Source of the DNA: Seleniivibrio woodruffii
GTDB lineage: Bacteria > Chrysiogenota > Deferribacteres > Deferribacterales > Geovibrionaceae
Direction of reading: 5' to 3'
NCBI RefSeq assembly: GCF_029267515.1
Contig: NZ_JAJUIS010000007.1
Span: 62,001-126,000 of the forward strand
Length of the DNA: 64,000 nucleotides
Of the stretch, positions 3,348 to 40,319 are shown piece by piece. A program made the position numbers and the translations under genes. The notes under the pieces are model-generated. The model had not been told where the DNA came from, made no database searches, and saw only the letters and a program-made list of their open reading frames with translations. How positions within the stretch are numbered: position 1 is the stretch's first letter; each line of letters starts with the position of its first letter.

Positions 3348-3534
3348 CCTTGCCTCATATGTTAAACGGCATCTGCCGCCGTACTATTTAACCCCATAAC
3401 ATTATCGTATAGTAACGGTACATGCAAGAGACTTATTGCCGATACTTTAAAAATAATTTGTTTTGCTTACTATTTCCCTTCTGTATTTTTGAATCTTTTG
3501 ATATATAATGCAGTATCAACAGACGGAGAGTAAT

Positions 3535-4035
3535 ATGCAGGTTAATCTGGAAGAGAGCAACAACATCACCATCGAGCGGGAGGGAACTTCCGACAGCTTT
3601 ATAATGTGTATTGATTCCAGAGTGACGGTGAAACTTTCCAAGTCAGAAATGAGGCTCATGCACGCGCTCATCGGTGCCCAGCTTCAGGATAATCCTAAAA
3701 TGGGTAAAGACGCTTTAAAAAAAGTTATGTCCGACGCTCTTTCCGCCAACAAACCCAAGGTTCAGGAAGTTCTGAGAAGAATGAAGCAGGAGGACATCGC
3801 CTTTGTCGTTTGGTACATGGGCGATCTGCGCCTTGCACACGAAATTCTCTCCAATATGTCAAAACGCTCCGCGGAAGACGTTCAGGAAACTGTGCGCGAA
3901 GCTATCGAACGCCGCATCCGCAAGGAACGCTCAACAGGCAACACCGTATTTGAAAGCCAGATGAACGAATACGGGAAAAACGTTGTAACCTCTTTTCTCA
4001 AGCAGGTGTTCGACACGGACAATCTCGCAGTTTAA
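3535..4035 (+). CDS. Orphan FliG-like (FliG C-domain type) protein
   Basis: This is a 166-residue soluble protein. I prefer the ATG at 3535 because GGAG sits six bases upstream; an ATG at 3508 in the same frame has no such site. Residues 74-130 resemble the C-terminal helical domain of the flagellar switch protein FliG, especially VLRRMKQEDIAFVVWYMGD followed by EILSNMSKRSAED, which is close to the FliG 'ilsnmskRaae' helix. The first 70 residues are unlike FliG, and the protein is half the FliG length, so it is not the motor component itself. No flagellar genes adjoin it. It overlaps the 3' end of the convergent regulator gene by four bases. A motility or structural accessory role is possible; function is unknown. 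Confidence 0.6.
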   Translation: MQVNLEESNNITIEREGTSDSFIMCIDSRVTVKLSKSEMRLMHALIGAQLQDNPKMGKDALKKVMSDALSANKPKVQEVLRRMKQEDIAFVVWYMGDLRLAHEILSNMSKRSAEDVQETVREAIERRIRKERSTGNTVFESQMNEYGKNVVTSFLKQVFDTDNLAV

Positions 4036-7000
4036 CGAAGCGCAGCAGATTTAATAATATATATAAGCTCAGTCTTTTCCGCTTTGGAATAGCCTTCCCT
4101 GTCCAGAAATTCTGAAAATTTATCCAGTACGTTTCTGCACTTCTGAATTTTTCCATTCTGGGCATAGAACGAATAGGTCATTGCCACCATGTCCGTTTCA
4201 TGGATGAATACGCTGAAAAAACGGTCGAACAGGGTCTCGGGACTGAATATCTCCGGCATGAAATAGTGCAGACTGTTCATCAGTTTCAGCATATTCATAA
4301 AGCTGACGTCCGTTTCTCTGCGTTTGCTCTCCACAGGCAGAACGTCTGTTATTCCGTCAAAAAATCTTCCTTTGAAAAGAGTTTCCGCCTCGGCAATGCT
4401 TATAGCCGCCGAAATGTATTCGCCGCGGGAATAGCTTTCTGAAGCAGTTTTTATCAGCAGGTTAAACCTTTCCGAATCGCATTTTATGTTGTGAATTTTG
4501 AGCATTCCGTTCTGCAGGGTAATATAGTTTTTCGGATCAATCCCGGAAAATGTGTCCGCCAGCAGTTTTCTGAAACGTGACAGCAGATTGTCCAGACTTC
4601 GCCGGGCGTTTTCCCTGCTGCTTTCCGACCACAGAAAAACCTGCATCTGTTCCTGATCTATGGTGAAGCCCGGACTGGAGAGAATTATGGCGAGCATAGT
4701 GCGGAACTGTACGCTTATGTCGGAGCAGTCCAGCGTATTCTGCCCGAAAGATATGGACAGGTTGTCCAGAGCTGTGATGTGCATCACAGGAATGGGGCGC
4801 GTGTTTTTGTCGAATGCAGTGTCCAGCTTCTGAAAGGCAAGATCAACTGAGAAAGCCGAAACGGACGGTTCGTTCGCCGTATATATGCAGGTGTTCAGCA
4901 GCACTTCTGGCATAAGTCCGCTCAGGTGGGTGTAACCTATCTTTTTCATCAGCTTTATGCAGAAGATGGCGTGTTCCCTTGCGCGCATTTTATCCCCTAT
5001 GTTGTTGAACAGATAGGAAAGGTATGAATGTGCGCAGGCGGCTGCATTATCGTTGACAGGATTTTTTTCCTGATTCGCCGCTTTGGTCAGGTGGAGGATC
5101 GCCTTCTTGTGGTTGCCGATAAATGTGTATGCGGCTCCTGCGGCTGCTTCACCGAAAGCCGTGAAAAAGTTATTAACTTCGCAGCTTCTGGCTTTTAACG
5201 ACGCTTCAGCTACGGAAGCTGCGTTTTCGTCACATTCGTATGCAAGTATCATTGCCTTAAACCCAAGAAGAAGTGCCGCCATGTGTTCCGGAAGGTTTTT
5301 GATATTACTGTCTGTGAGTCTGCTGAGAATTATTTCAGCCAGTTCCGTATCGCCTCTGGAAAAAGCATATTCCAGTTCGCATATGTCCGCAAAGGCAGTG
5401 AGTCTGAAGCTGTGTTCCATATGAAGACGGTATTTTCTCTGCACAAGATTCATTATCAGGTGCATAAGATGGAACTGACCGGTCATGGCGAGAAAATGGT
5501 TGAGAAGGTTGAGCATGGACAGTTTAAGAAATCCTTCCTGCTTAACTGTTATTATCTTCTGAAAAGTTATGTTGCAGTATTTTTCAGCCAGTTTTTTTTC
5601 ACAGGCGGTCATGTGTGCGGAGATAAAAAGGGAATAAAGGTGCAGTTTGAAACTTTCGGCATTGTATTTTTCAGCCAGAGCAAGCGATCGGCTGAGATAT
5701 TCAGCCGCGAGCTGTCCGCTTTTGAAATTGAAGCATCCAAGCCCGTATGCGGCGCAGACGATCATCTTCATGGGATCTTCCAACTCGTCACAGGTTTCTG
5801 TCATCATAGACTTTATTCTGACGAAATATTTTTCAGCCTCAGTCAGATTACCCTCTATGGCCGAATAATAGCTTAAAAGCCCGCAGGCGGATATTATTGT
5901 TCCTGCTCTGTTACCGTACATTGTGAATGTGTCCAGCGTATGAAAAAAGATGTCTCTCGTCTTTTCCGGAGCAACAGCCAGAAGAAGCTGACCGAAAGCC
6001 AGAGGTATCCATGCCCTGTTTCTGAAAACGTCTGCGGGCACAGTGGAAAAGATATCGGCAAGATGTCTCTTTGTTTCGATGAGGATTATTGCAGGAAAGT
6101 TTTTTTGAAGATATTCCTCAAGTTTGTCAAAATTTTCAGCAGATATCATATATTCGATTACCGCTGGGAGGTTCTGTCTTTCCGCTTCATATCCGGCTGC
6201 CAGTTCATAAAATGAATGGCGCTCAAATACCGACAGGCGCGTTACGGCTTCGTTTTTCAGCCATTCGCGGAACAGCCTGTTGAATCTGAACAGGTCGTTC
6301 CTTTTTTTTATGACCAGCACGGTTTCCTCGTGCAGTTTCTGCATCAGCTTTCCGGCAGATCCGGTGGAATCCGCCAGACTGAGAAGCTGTGTGCTGAAAG
6401 ACGGCAGCAGTGAAAGTTTCTGCAGGAGATGGTATTCTTCCGGTGAAAGTTTTTTTACCGCTGCGCTGAATATCCCTTCGCAAGCCTCCATGGCAAAAGC
6501 AGTTGCCGAGAAGGTGTCCTCCTCTGTTTTTGCCATGGAGCAGATCACAGCCTCAGCGTACGATATGATCCCCTCGGTGATTTCGTATATCCTTTCCAGC
6601 GAGCGGAAGGTTGCTGTGTCCTGCAGGCAGGCGACAGACAGTTCTTTAAATTCTTCCTGTGTAAGTTTCAGATAGCTTTCGTCTATGATGTAAGTTTCCC
6701 TGTTTAGACGTGCGTATTCTGCCGGAAATCCGTTGGTTTTGTGCGTACAGACAGCAAAAGACAGACTTCCTCCGGCAAGCTGCAAAGCGGACATCAGAGC
6801 GAGGTAGGTTACGCTTTTTATTTTTAATATGTGGATGTCGTCAATGATAATAAGTGTTCTGATTCTGGAGTTTTTTTTGTACGCTCTCAGAAGAAATGAC
6901 AGAAGGTTTCCGACCTCAAGCGGGGTGATGCCTGTCTTTTCAGCCTGTTCCATGTGTTCTGAAACGAAATCGGGCTGTGACTGACGCATTGCCTTGTAAA

Positions 7001-7223
7001 GATTCCGGCAAAAATATTCAGGGGTTTTGTCTTTTTGGGTAATCTGGTAATATACTGTTCTTTCGAAATATTTTGCTCCGATACTCAATGCGAACCCGGT
7101 CTTTCCGGTTCCTTCGCCCGCTGTCAGCAGAAAGATATTTTTTGTCTGCATGTGCGGAGACAGTGCGGCAAGTTTTGAAACTCTGTTTAAAATAATGTTT
7201 GCTGCCGGTTTATTTTCATTCAT
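4032..7223 (-). CDS. Very large STAND ATPase transcriptional regulator with C-terminal BTAD domain
   Basis: This 1063-residue cytoplasmic protein has three parts. At the N terminus is a MalT-like STAND NTPase, with Walker A AGEGTGKT at 35-42 and Walker B TLIIIDDI at 123-130. A long helical TPR-like middle spans roughly 330-780. The C-terminal ~270 residues resemble a winged-helix plus bacterial transcriptional activator domain: VFLWSESSRENARRSLDNLLSRFRKLL, then a YSRGEYISAAISIAEAETLFKGRFFDG helical segment. MalT/SARP-type regulators of this architecture oligomerise on ATP and inducer binding and activate target promoters. The ligand is unknown. Transcription starts in the AT-rich region near 7240, divergent from the cobalamin locus. 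Targets are not evident; the neighbouring FliG-like gene is one candidate. Confidence 0.75.
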   Translation of the reverse strand: MNENKPAANIILNRVSKLAALSPHMQTKNIFLLTAGEGTGKTGFALSIGAKYFERTVYYQITQKDKTPEYFCRNLYKAMRQSQPDFVSEHMEQAEKTGITPLEVGNLLSFLLRAYKKNSRIRTLIIIDDIHILKIKSVTYLALMSALQLAGGSLSFAVCTHKTNGFPAEYARLNRETYIIDESYLKLTQEEFKELSVACLQDTATFRSLERIYEITEGIISYAEAVICSMAKTEEDTFSATAFAMEACEGIFSAAVKKLSPEEYHLLQKLSLLPSFSTQLLSLADSTGSAGKLMQKLHEETVLVIKKRNDLFRFNRLFREWLKNEAVTRLSVFERHSFYELAAGYEAERQNLPAVIEYMISAENFDKLEEYLQKNFPAIILIETKRHLADIFSTVPADVFRNRAWIPLAFGQLLLAVAPEKTRDIFFHTLDTFTMYGNRAGTIISACGLLSYYSAIEGNLTEAEKYFVRIKSMMTETCDELEDPMKMIVCAAYGLGCFNFKSGQLAAEYLSRSLALAEKYNAESFKLHLYSLFISAHMTACEKKLAEKYCNITFQKIITVKQEGFLKLSMLNLLNHFLAMTGQFHLMHLIMNLVQRKYRLHMEHSFRLTAFADICELEYAFSRGDTELAEIILSRLTDSNIKNLPEHMAALLLGFKAMILAYECDENAASVAEASLKARSCEVNNFFTAFGEAAAGAAYTFIGNHKKAILHLTKAANQEKNPVNDNAAACAHSYLSYLFNNIGDKMRAREHAIFCIKLMKKIGYTHLSGLMPEVLLNTCIYTANEPSVSAFSVDLAFQKLDTAFDKNTRPIPVMHITALDNLSISFGQNTLDCSDISVQFRTMLAIILSSPGFTIDQEQMQVFLWSESSRENARRSLDNLLSRFRKLLADTFSGIDPKNYITLQNGMLKIHNIKCDSERFNLLIKTASESYSRGEYISAAISIAEAETLFKGRFFDGITDVLPVESKRRETDVSFMNMLKLMNSLHYFMPEIFSPETLFDRFFSVFIHETDMVAMTYSFYAQNGKIQKCRNVLDKFSEFLDREGYSKAEKTELIYIIKSAALR

Positions 7224-18262: not shown

Positions 18263-19042
18263 TTATCCTAAAGTCTGTTTCAGCTCTATCTGACGTTTGA
18301 AAACGTACTTTATGATAAGGTTGCGGTCTGATTCCTTAGTAAAGTCGAAACGGAAGCTAACCTCTGTGCGTTCCTGTATTCTCTTTACGCGGATTGCCGT
18401 GCATGGGGCGCTGTCGAGCTCCGGCACGGCTTCGGACATATCCAGAAGAAACTGCTGGTGGTTTTCCATCCATGATGAGGTTATCAGCTTTCCGCCGCCG
18501 CCCGAAACGTCCATTATCATGCAGTCCACGCTTTTGTGAGGTATCTTCATGTTTTTGTCCGGCACGGCGGAGTAGAACATTTTCACCTTGCCCTTGATGC
18601 GTGTGTCCACGCGGTAGAACTCACGGAGTTGGTTTCTTGTTATGGATTTAGGTTTTTCAACGGTGACAAGAGTTACTCTGCCCTGTGATTTTCTTCCGGT
18701 CACAGTGGTTTCAAAGCGGAAACGCCCGCTGGTGTTAACAAATTCTATATGGGCTATTGTTCCGGGAACCATCGGAACCGGCACACCGTCCGCCGAAGGC
18801 TGAGAGATGTGTATGTTGCTGTTGTCAAAGTCTTCAACGCGGGAGTCGTAAACGCCCTGATAGCTTGCGTTTTTGACAGTGACAGTGATTCTGGTATTTA
18901 CCGGCATATGGTCTTCTATATTTTTAATATCCTCTTTTTTCATTCCGTCATTCTCCGCAAAAACAAAATCCAGACCGTTTCCGTCTTGGCTTCTATGGTT
19001 ATTTATATAGTCCGACATTTTATTGAGCACAAGGCTAAACAT
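18263..19042 (-). CDS. YcgR-like PilZ-domain c-di-GMP-binding protein
   Basis: This 259-residue cytoplasmic protein has an N-terminal YcgR/PilZN-like beta domain (about 45-135, RITVTVKNASYQGVYDSRV ... FRFETTVTGRK) and a C-terminal PilZ domain. The PilZ c-di-GMP-binding motifs are present: RNQLREFYRVDTR (RxxxR, about 140-150) and DVSGGGGK (D/NxSxxG). Proteins of this build slow or redirect flagellar motility, or modulate other outputs, when c-di-GMP rises. An HD-GYP protein (43390-44598) elsewhere in the window could set the c-di-GMP level. The gene appears to be monocistronic. Confidence 0.85.
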   Translation of the reverse strand: MFSLVLNKMSDYINNHRSQDGNGLDFVFAENDGMKKEDIKNIEDHMPVNTRITVTVKNASYQGVYDSRVEDFDNSNIHISQPSADGVPVPMVPGTIAHIEFVNTSGRFRFETTVTGRKSQGRVTLVTVEKPKSITRNQLREFYRVDTRIKGKVKMFYSAVPDKNMKIPHKSVDCMIMDVSGGGGKLITSSWMENHQQFLLDMSEAVPELDSAPCTAIRVKRIQERTEVSFRFDFTKESDRNLIIKYVFKRQIELKQTLG

Positions 19043-19228: not shown

Positions 19229-19795
19229 ATGGAATGGGATATCACGGCAGACCAGATTAACGACGGAGAGCTGACTTTCAGCCTTACGGAGTTCACAAAT
19301 AAGATGTTTAAGATGGTCAGCGCCGAGGTCAAAGAGTCTGAAACCGCGCCGGCAGGTGCGGAAAATCAGACCGAACCTCTTGAAAATTATTTTGTTCAGT
19401 ATTACGTTTGTTTTTATAACTACATGCTCTGTCTGGCAACGGACAGATCCCGCTGGGGATTCGTTTCCCACACAAAGCGCCTGATGATAGATCAGGATAT
19501 TAAAAAGCGGTTCATGGATAAAAAATATCTTATCCTGCTGGCGGAGGAACAGAAGGAGACTGTGGATATTTTTAAGGCTGTGCTGAAAAGATTCGTTTCC
19601 GACCTCATTGAGGCGGGCGTCAGCACAAACAGGCTGCCGCAGATGATTTATATGCAGCAGCTAAACTCTTTCTCGTCTATCCTGCCCAGTATTATGAAAA
19701 ATGAAAAAGCAAGAAAAATGCTTGTGCGCATCGAGTTTCACAACAGCTTTTTCGGGAGTCTGAAGAGCCTTTTTAAACTTCCCATAGGTGGATGA
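19229..19795 (+). CDS. Uncharacterised 188-residue protein, first of a coupled pair
   Basis: I do not recognise this protein. It is soluble, acidic at the N terminus and basic at the C terminus, with no signal peptide or membrane segment and several predicted helices (for example KYLILLAEEQKETVDIFKAVLKRFVSDLIEAG). AGGAG lies seven bases before the ATG. Its stop codon overlaps the start of the next gene by four bases (ATGATG context), implying a two-gene unit whose products act together. It is divergent from the PilZ gene. Confidence 0.7.
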   Translation: MEWDITADQINDGELTFSLTEFTNKMFKMVSAEVKESETAPAGAENQTEPLENYFVQYYVCFYNYMLCLATDRSRWGFVSHTKRLMIDQDIKKRFMDKKYLILLAEEQKETVDIFKAVLKRFVSDLIEAGVSTNRLPQMIYMQQLNSFSSILPSIMKNEKARKMLVRIEFHNSFFGSLKSLFKLPIGG

Positions 19796-20583
19796 TGGCA
19801 AAAGAAAGAAACAGTGACATACGTCTTCTCAAACTGGTCAACAAGGTAACGGAGACCAGAAAGATAACAATGGGGTACATGCTTTATGCCCTTGAGATTG
19901 TGAGAACCAATACTGAGGTCACGTACAGCATCACGTTTATCCCCATAGCGAAGACAGGACCCGAAGGGAATGCGGAAAACCTTCCCGAAAACGAACTGCC
20001 TTCGGAGATCATGAACGGGCTTGAAAACGAATTTAAAAAGGACAACAGGCTTACTGCTGTTGCCGACCTTCTGACACGCACCATCCGGTTTCCCCATATC
20101 AATAAGTTCAAGCTGTCGAGTTCATACCGCGGATATGGTCTGGGAACCTATGCCATGAACGAACTTGCCGGACTTCTGCGCGGCAGTTTTCCCGATTTCG
20201 GTGTGGAATCCGTATATTTCTATTTCGATTCTAAACGCGAGGACGACGACAGAGGCGCTTTCTTCTCTTTTATGGAGAAATTCGGCTTCACTTTCAGTTT
20301 TGATGACGAAAACAACAACAAAGGACTTCTCAATATGGAAAAGGCTGAGATGCTGCGCATAAATCCGAAAAAGGATAAATGCGTCGAGCTGGAACTCGCC
20401 CCTTTCATCCGCACACTGTTCAGAGAGCGCGATGAGTTTCGTCAGGAACTTGGCAGGCTGAAAGCGGAATATAAAAAGAACAATACGTTCATGAACAGAT
20501 TCGAGAAGGATCAGGCTATTAAATTTCTTACAAACGTTATTATAGCGTTGGTTCTTATAATCCTTATGCTCCTCTTTATATAA
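19792..20583 (+). CDS. Uncharacterised protein with GNAT-like motif and C-terminal membrane anchor
   Basis: This 263-residue protein shows YRGYGLGTYAMNELAGLL near residue 112, like the acetyl-CoA-binding R/QxxGxG/A motif A of GNAT acetyltransferases. It is followed by VESVYFYFDSKRE and FMEKFGFTF, as in the C-terminal strands of that fold. The chain then has a charged coiled-coil-like stretch (about 205-240) and ends in one hydrophobic segment (ALVLIILMLLFI), a tail anchor into the inner membrane. The GNAT assignment is tentative. It is translationally coupled to the preceding gene. Confidence 0.6.
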   Translation: MMAKERNSDIRLLKLVNKVTETRKITMGYMLYALEIVRTNTEVTYSITFIPIAKTGPEGNAENLPENELPSEIMNGLENEFKKDNRLTAVADLLTRTIRFPHINKFKLSSSYRGYGLGTYAMNELAGLLRGSFPDFGVESVYFYFDSKREDDDRGAFFSFMEKFGFTFSFDDENNNKGLLNMEKAEMLRINPKKDKCVELELAPFIRTLFRERDEFRQELGRLKAEYKKNNTFMNRFEKDQAIKFLTNVIIALVLIILMLLFI

Positions 20584-39840: not shown

Positions 39841-40146
39841 TCACACGAAAATATCAATATTATTGCCAAGGTTGCTCATGAGGGCATTGCTTTCAGCGTC
39901 TGCGGATTCAGATACTTTTTCATCTTCGGATTTTCCGCCGCTTTTTTCGGCTTTATAATCATTCTCTTCTTTCGCGTTTATCCTGCCGTCGCCGTCTTTG
40001 TCATATTTGTCGTATACGTCTTTGCTCACCCTGTCATAGGCAATGCTATACGTTGTTGCAGATTTTTCGCCTGAACCGTTGTTCCCGTTTCCGCCTGCGT
40101 GTGGTATGCCGGAATAGGACGACGGATTAACACCTGATACGCTCAT
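39841..40146 (-). CDS. Small EF-hand calcium-binding protein
   Basis: This 101-residue hydrophilic protein contains one canonical EF-hand loop DKDGDGRINAKEE (about 50-62), with Ca2+ ligands at the expected positions. Around it is low-complexity Gly/Asn/Ser/Glu-rich sequence. The ATG at 40144-40146 is chosen because GGAG lies six bases before it; longer frames start at codons without a ribosome site. No signal peptide or membrane segment is evident. It lies just outside the tRNA island and is divergent from a histidine kinase gene. Role unknown. Confidence 0.6.
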   Translation of the reverse strand: MSVSGVNPSSYSGIPHAGGNGNNGSGEKSATTYSIAYDRVSKDVYDKYDKDGDGRINAKEENDYKAEKSGGKSEDEKVSESADAESNALMSNLGNNIDIFV

Positions 40147-40319
40147 ATCATTCTCCATCGGAAGTTCATATTCATATCGGAAAAAGACTTTATTTCTTAA
40201 CAAAAAGGGCTGTTCATTTACAAGCTAATCGTTACCGCGCTCCCTGCCTCGGTTGACAACCAAAGGCTTTGGTGGTTAAATATTGAGCGTAGGTATTTTA
40301 TTTAATCAAGAAGAGGCGG

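Follow-up and report, generated by a model that had tools for sequence, protein, structure and literature searches.

Five charged residues of the rotor protein FliG, at positions 264, 281, 288, 289 and 297, serve as landmarks of the rotor. Charged residues of the FliG torque helix touch the stator, according to one account (PMC11853002), and the domain that carries this stator-binding helix, D5, is placed at residues 243-331 in another (PMC11087270). The window analysed here, a stretch of 64,000 nucleotides of Seleniivibrio woodruffii DNA, contains a gene for a small protein, hereafter the orphan, that resembles this last domain of FliG.

Likeness to Borrelia FliG1 lies in the occurrence of an additional FliG-related protein beside canonical FliG. 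FliG1 has the full FliG architecture, whereas the orphan carries FliG's last domain only. FliG1 is described as having a central part, together with the stator, in generating torque (PMC7225975). Among small proteins, YcgR and others act at the rotor-stator interface, as stated in one report (PMC10140304). If the orphan acted on the motor, it would resemble YcgR in being small and cytosolic and in having MotA or FliG as its target; however, YcgR is a PilZ protein, whereas no aligned orphan orthologue matched PilZ and the orphan resembles the rotor side itself. Full-text literature searches, mostly of journals other than subscription journals, returned no title or abstract in which stand-alone or extra FliG proteins were described.

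The other system to be compared is the STAND activator MalT, of which the C-terminal DNA-binding domain is of the LuxR type and of which Aes is an inhibitor. MalT is also held inactive by a separate protein, MalY, as described in PMC10427625. Should the orphan act on the MalT-like regulator encoded beside it, MalY and Aes would be like it in being separate proteins that restrain a STAND activator, although MalY is not known as a fixed convergent neighbour of malT whereas the orphan gene lies tail to tail with that of the regulator. Since MalY is not known to be related to FliG, the comparison with MalY and MalT is an analogy.

Results

Reading frame, conservation and distribution of the orphan gene

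3535-4035, + strand: orphan FliG-D5-like protein gene, 166 residues plus stop (from the frame, start, orthologues and dN/dS)

The frame of 166 residues at these coordinates, and both peptides that a previous sequence-only reading of this DNA had quoted from it, were found in the translation where that reading had placed them. The mechanically determined open reading frame begins at 3508, and the start codon of MQV lies at 3535; MQV were the first residues of all eight orthologues, which shared the frame from this point on. Judged by its sequence, the gene is genuine and subject to purifying selection, with dN/dS values of 0.039-0.077 for six pairs among four sequences at high dS (up to 2.1).

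Of 50 Deferribacterota genomes, 8 were found to carry an orthologue, all in two genera of one family, Seleniivibrio (5/5 genomes) and presumably Denitrovibrio (3/3); none was found in the four genomes of the other two genera of this family. That homologues might be confined to non-motile species is contradicted by canonical FliG in each of the eight carriers, and Denitrovibrio acetiphilus is described as motile (PMC3035293). The orthologue of one carrier genome, G020 (locus L017, 10001-10486), contained one internal stop in a frame otherwise intact and conserved; the stop is due either to a lesion or to an error of sequencing. This sequence was omitted from the orphan alignment because of its stop, leaving seven of the eight, but was read through the stop for the table of residues discussed below. 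A scan of GTDB contigs with one orphan sequence returned only two loci (L001 and L002), which were left out as being, by length, the same contigs as those of carriers G026 and G027; this single-sequence scan missed or omitted the other known carriers and therefore shows no absence. Sampling of the orphan outside the phylum was sparse (289 genomes across the domain and two more). A mobile origin was considered and set aside, no relative having been confirmed in viral contigs or plasmids.

Sequence kinship with FliG

FliG_C (PF01706) was the best Pfam family for the window protein, with an E value of 1.4e-4 and a score of 22.5 bits, slightly below the cut-off of 23.3, and the sole family matched by all seven aligned orphan members (best E 3.4e-7). 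In the genome search, this cut-off was passed by three of the eight orthologues, with scores of 30.7, 24.9 and 22.9 (23.7 for the last with its neighbours). With the NCBIfam fliG model, four of the seven aligned members gave a match (best E 2e-4), whereas the window protein gave none. Weak matches to SspI, ribosomal L22, UPF0154 and PHROGs, including an HTH family (E 0.0014, two of seven members), were rejected.

A profile of the orthologues, run against PDB sequences, matched FliG structures (best E 5.8e-5) and, on 1lkv, scored 23.9 bits for the C domain versus 1.9 for the middle domain. Within the phylum, the same profile also matched 21 frames of about the length of FliG (336-357 residues), at E values of 0.002-0.03. 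In the 289 genomes from across the domain, matches at E <= 0.001 comprised the eight orthologues and 20 other places, every one of which was a full-length FliG (18 identified by phmmer against FliG of the window's own genome and two separately). These 20 matches, selected because they matched, scored 18.0-27.3 bits, as compared with 7.1 bits for the best of 50 column-shuffled profiles and 15.6 bits for the best of 1050 shuffled FliG sequences (952 scored), a value not exceeded by FliG of the own genome (13.3 bits). A profile-profile comparison (hhalign) of the orphan with 11 FliG proteins of the phylum was weak (38% probability, E 3.3e-4). Taken together, the profile matches, the shuffle controls and the weak profile-profile score indicate, at the level of sequence, that the similarity is above chance and the kinship with FliG real but distant.

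Predicted structure and domain layout

3535-3702, + strand: N-terminal module, residues 1-56, predicted strands and one helix (from models; without a named relative)
3712-4026, + strand: predicted FliG D5-like domain, residues about 60-164 (from Pfam FliG_C, the PDB profile search and structural realignment)
3862-3933, + strand: putative torque-helix equivalent, residues 110-133, extended (from model helix H110-133; IERRIRKER invariant in 8/8)

An AlphaFold2 model built from seven sequences had a mean pLDDT of 82, with blocks of 86-96 across residues 61-160. In a Foldseek search, the ten best PDB rows were FliG or rotor chains of FliG length, although these matches were weak (best E 0.028). 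Following realignment with VIA-align 2, rows 1 to 16 were FliG or rotor chains with Z values from 9.4 to 6.3, rows 1 and 2 being tied, and the next row was an unrelated protein with a Z of 5.3. Since Z values of 8-9 are in the range that the program's note calls common among helical proteins, support for a FliG fold comes from the uniform identity of the top 16 rows and the drop to 5.3 for the next, not from Z itself. Thirteen of these 16 rows covered the C-terminal part of FliG while rows 1, 15 and 16 covered the middle domain, whose fold is related; in 11 of the thirteen, 83-87 residues were superimposed at 2.1-2.7 A on FliG residues from about 232 to 331, depending on species. When the sequence evidence is added to these rows, the orphan domain is assigned to the C-terminal part of FliG. 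Thus, profiles and model agree that residues from about 60 to 164 are a distant copy of FliG D5 and that the N-terminal 55 or so residues form an unrelated module, in support of the FliG C-domain likeness and unrelated N terminus described in the sequence-only reading.

At E <= 0.05, a profile of the N-terminal module had no matches in the 50 genomes beyond the eight carriers of the orphan, and a Foldseek search with this module gave no confident match (best E 1.4). Realignment with VIA-align 2 gave a best Z of 5.7 followed by values of 4.7 or less, with several rows for PC4, Sub1 and KhtT, which was too weak to name a fold.

It is hardly credible that the resemblance to FliG is due to chance or that the gene is decaying. 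Taken alone, the hhalign probability, the best Foldseek E value and the failure of the own FliG to exceed the best shuffle are contrary to homology, and the score of the window protein, 0.8 bit below the Pfam cut-off, and the internal stop of one orthologue could be added to these; but the low dN/dS, the identity of all 20 further matches as FliG and that of the 16 best structural rows as FliG or rotor chains are difficult to reconcile with either chance or decay.

Rotor features lost and retained

Compared with FliG, the orphan is short (166 residues), gave no match to FliG_N or FliG_M in Pfam at E <= 10 and has the new N-terminal module but neither the N domain, which in FliG serves FliF, nor the middle domain, of which the motif EHPQ serves FliM; this motif, present in FliG of the own genome, is missing from the orphan sequence. 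The NMSKR motif, with variants, and the equivalent of Arg281 are kept in seven or eight of the eight orthologues. At the five charged rotor positions, FliG of the own genome has K, R, E, E and K, whereas four of these places are not conserved in the orphan. With the SKR motif as anchor of the alignment, the equivalent of Lys264 is lost in all eight, being Tyr or Phe or, if a gap of one residue is allowed, Trp; an acid occurs at place 288 in six of eight and at place 289 in none; and the Gly-Pro loop is replaced in all eight by a longer helix with IERRIRKER, so that there is no loop to carry position 297. The equivalent of Arg281, retained in 8/8, is the sole one of the five conserved throughout. 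Because the FliF- and FliM-binding parts are missing and four of the five charged rotor residues are not conserved, a role as an interchangeable rotor subunit is unlikely on sequence grounds. For the same reason, namely the missing FliM-binding middle domain, an earlier suggestion that the orphan binds FliM finds no support.

The genome itself encodes a canonical FliG, behind a FliF-like frame recognised by eye, as well as one FliM and six matches of the MotA/ExbB type. The orphan was originally noted as lying away from flagellar genes, which holds for fliG and fliM, located on contigs C13 and C11 as opposed to C3 for the window; a YcgR-type PilZ protein is encoded in the window 14 kb away. 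The presence of FliG in every carrier and of FliM and the MotA/ExbB-type matches in the own genome, the fold of a stator-contacting domain, the Arg281 equivalent and the acid at 288 in 6/8 are all consistent with a modulator of the motor, in which the N-terminal module would be the sensor and the D5-like domain, by binding FliG or the stator (MotA), would serve as decoy, brake or clutch. We nevertheless consider this rather unlikely, as all eight orthologues lack both the Lys264 equivalent and the acid at 289, the Gly-Pro loop is replaced, the gene is distant from fliG and fliM, and other flagellate relatives in the family are without the orphan.

The YcgR-type protein (18263-19042, - strand) matched PilZNR (E 7.8e-16) and PilZ (E 8.7e-8) and is, from these matches, a likely c-di-GMP flagellar brake. 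Two overlapping genes adjoin it on the + strand (19229-19795 and 19792-20583), encoding proteins of 188 and 263 residues with no Pfam match at E <= 0.01. The window also encodes a small EF-hand protein (39841-40203, - strand; E 0.0015, below the Pfam cut-off), and similar small EF-hand-like proteins were seen by eye close to the orphan in loci L016, L017 and L018.

A convergent MalT-like gene

4032-7223, - strand: MalT-like STAND ATPase, 1063 residues, convergent partner gene (from AAA_22, the MalT profile match and occurrence in the same 8/50 genomes)
4032-4035, no strand: TTAA, a 4-bp overlap in which both convergent genes have their stop codons (from sequence)

A constant partner gene, of which the earlier note makes no mention, was found next to the orphan. 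This gene, for a regulator of about 1060 residues, was seen in the eight genomes that carry the orphan, and neither gene was found in the other 42 of the 50. The two lay tail to tail in all eight, with a 4-bp overlap of stop codons in six and gaps of 1 bp (G025) and 2 bp (G018) in the others. AAA_22 was present in all eight family members, and a profile of the eight proteins matched MalT (8bob, E 3.9e-12, over 33-413) and, weakly, TPR proteins. As judged by these matches, the regulator has a MalT-like nucleotide-binding and oligomerisation core. At its C terminus, weak matches were seen to Trans_reg_C in two of eight members (best E 0.0015) and to BTAD in one (E 0.0053), none of them in the window protein, and no LuxR HTH was present among the families listed.

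Identity between regulators of the two genera fell to 26-28%. The frame of the G027 regulator was split, and this sequence was for that reason left out of the regulator alignment; the alignment includes a second, unpaired copy from G019 (L080, 3767-6985). This second copy is diverged, with 22% identity to the regulator of the window, and is without an orphan match; after it, a short piece of yet another copy was recognised by eye.

The flanks of the pair varied. An NMO gene, which we take to be PfaD-like, adjoins the orphan in six of eight loci, is more distant in G018 and G019, and is present in the family's other four genomes, in which neither orphan nor regulator was found. On the far side of the regulator, the gene is of the CbiK type in the five Seleniivibrio loci (by Pfam for the window and by eye for the others) and differs in the three loci of the second genus. 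The pair thus stays together while both flanks change. This persistence, with an overlap of 4 bp or a gap of 1-2 bp in 8/8, argues against a task tied to neither motor nor regulator, for which the fold would have been reused independently and the tail-to-tail arrangement would be inherited linkage. Such a task seems doubtful to us, even though convergent neighbours need not share a function, the distribution is confined to two genera of one family and the most conserved surface of the orphan (IERRIRKER, MQV) is without a motor counterpart.

Candidate control sites

A candidate sigma-28 promoter that precedes the orphan in two genomes (GCCGATAC or GCCGATAA) was rejected, as it was not kept in the others and had no fitting -35 element by eye. 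A scan of 3348-4300 for sigma-70 promoters and terminators found nothing. The conserved element CATGCAAG, 115 bp upstream, was likewise rejected as an orphan control site because it follows the divergent NMO gene in seven of eight genomes, including G019 where this gene is distant from the orphan, and can be read as the -35 region of the NMO gene. Upstream of the NMO gene, CTTGCATG (window 3420-3430; also L016, L017, L019, L020, L081 and L082) is conserved in seven of eight genomes and looks like the -35 region of that gene.

Discussion

The explanation that we favour, although tentatively and by analogy, is that the orphan may reuse the D5 fold as a protein partner dedicated to the MalT-like STAND regulator, either an anti-activator or a signal adaptor. 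The suggestion that the FliG-type fold might serve in another machine fits better than binding to FliG or FliM, given the constant MalT-like gene. In the proposed mechanism, a diverged, stand-alone copy of FliG D5 would have been placed behind a new N-terminal module, and the resulting protein would bind the ATPase or repeat body of the regulator. Once bound, the orphan would either keep the regulator inactive, as MalY does MalT, or relay a signal to it. The interaction, its transcriptional outcome and the sign of that outcome are what we infer from three lines of evidence. The first is the joint occurrence of the two genes in 8 of the 50 genomes, invariably tail to tail despite the drift of the regulator and the changing flanks; the second is the match of the regulator profile to MalT, an activator restrained by a separate protein; and the third is the loss of rotor-specific features from an orphan that remains under constraint.

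Several observations weigh against a partnership of this kind. The co-occurrence may reflect a single event in a common ancestor, and convergent neighbours are not co-transcribed. Moreover, the second regulator copy in G019 is unpaired, G020 has an open regulator frame beside an orphan broken by a stop, and in G027 it is the regulator that is split. Finally, the C-terminal Trans_reg_C and BTAD matches are weak, few and absent from the window protein.

A combination of motor and regulator may also be envisaged, in which the D5-like domain has two alternative docking places, the MalT-like STAND protein and the interface of rotor and stator, and so reports the state of the motor to transcription. 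Stator engagement or load would then set the amount of orphan left to restrain the regulator. We regard this as quite improbable.

The torque domain of FliG is treated as a specialised part of the rotor. A free-standing D5 that has lost most of its stator-facing charges and has a STAND regulator for a partner would be evidence that this domain has been reused as an interaction module. If the orphan also touches the motor, the conversion of motor state into gene expression by bacteria could be tested directly with it.
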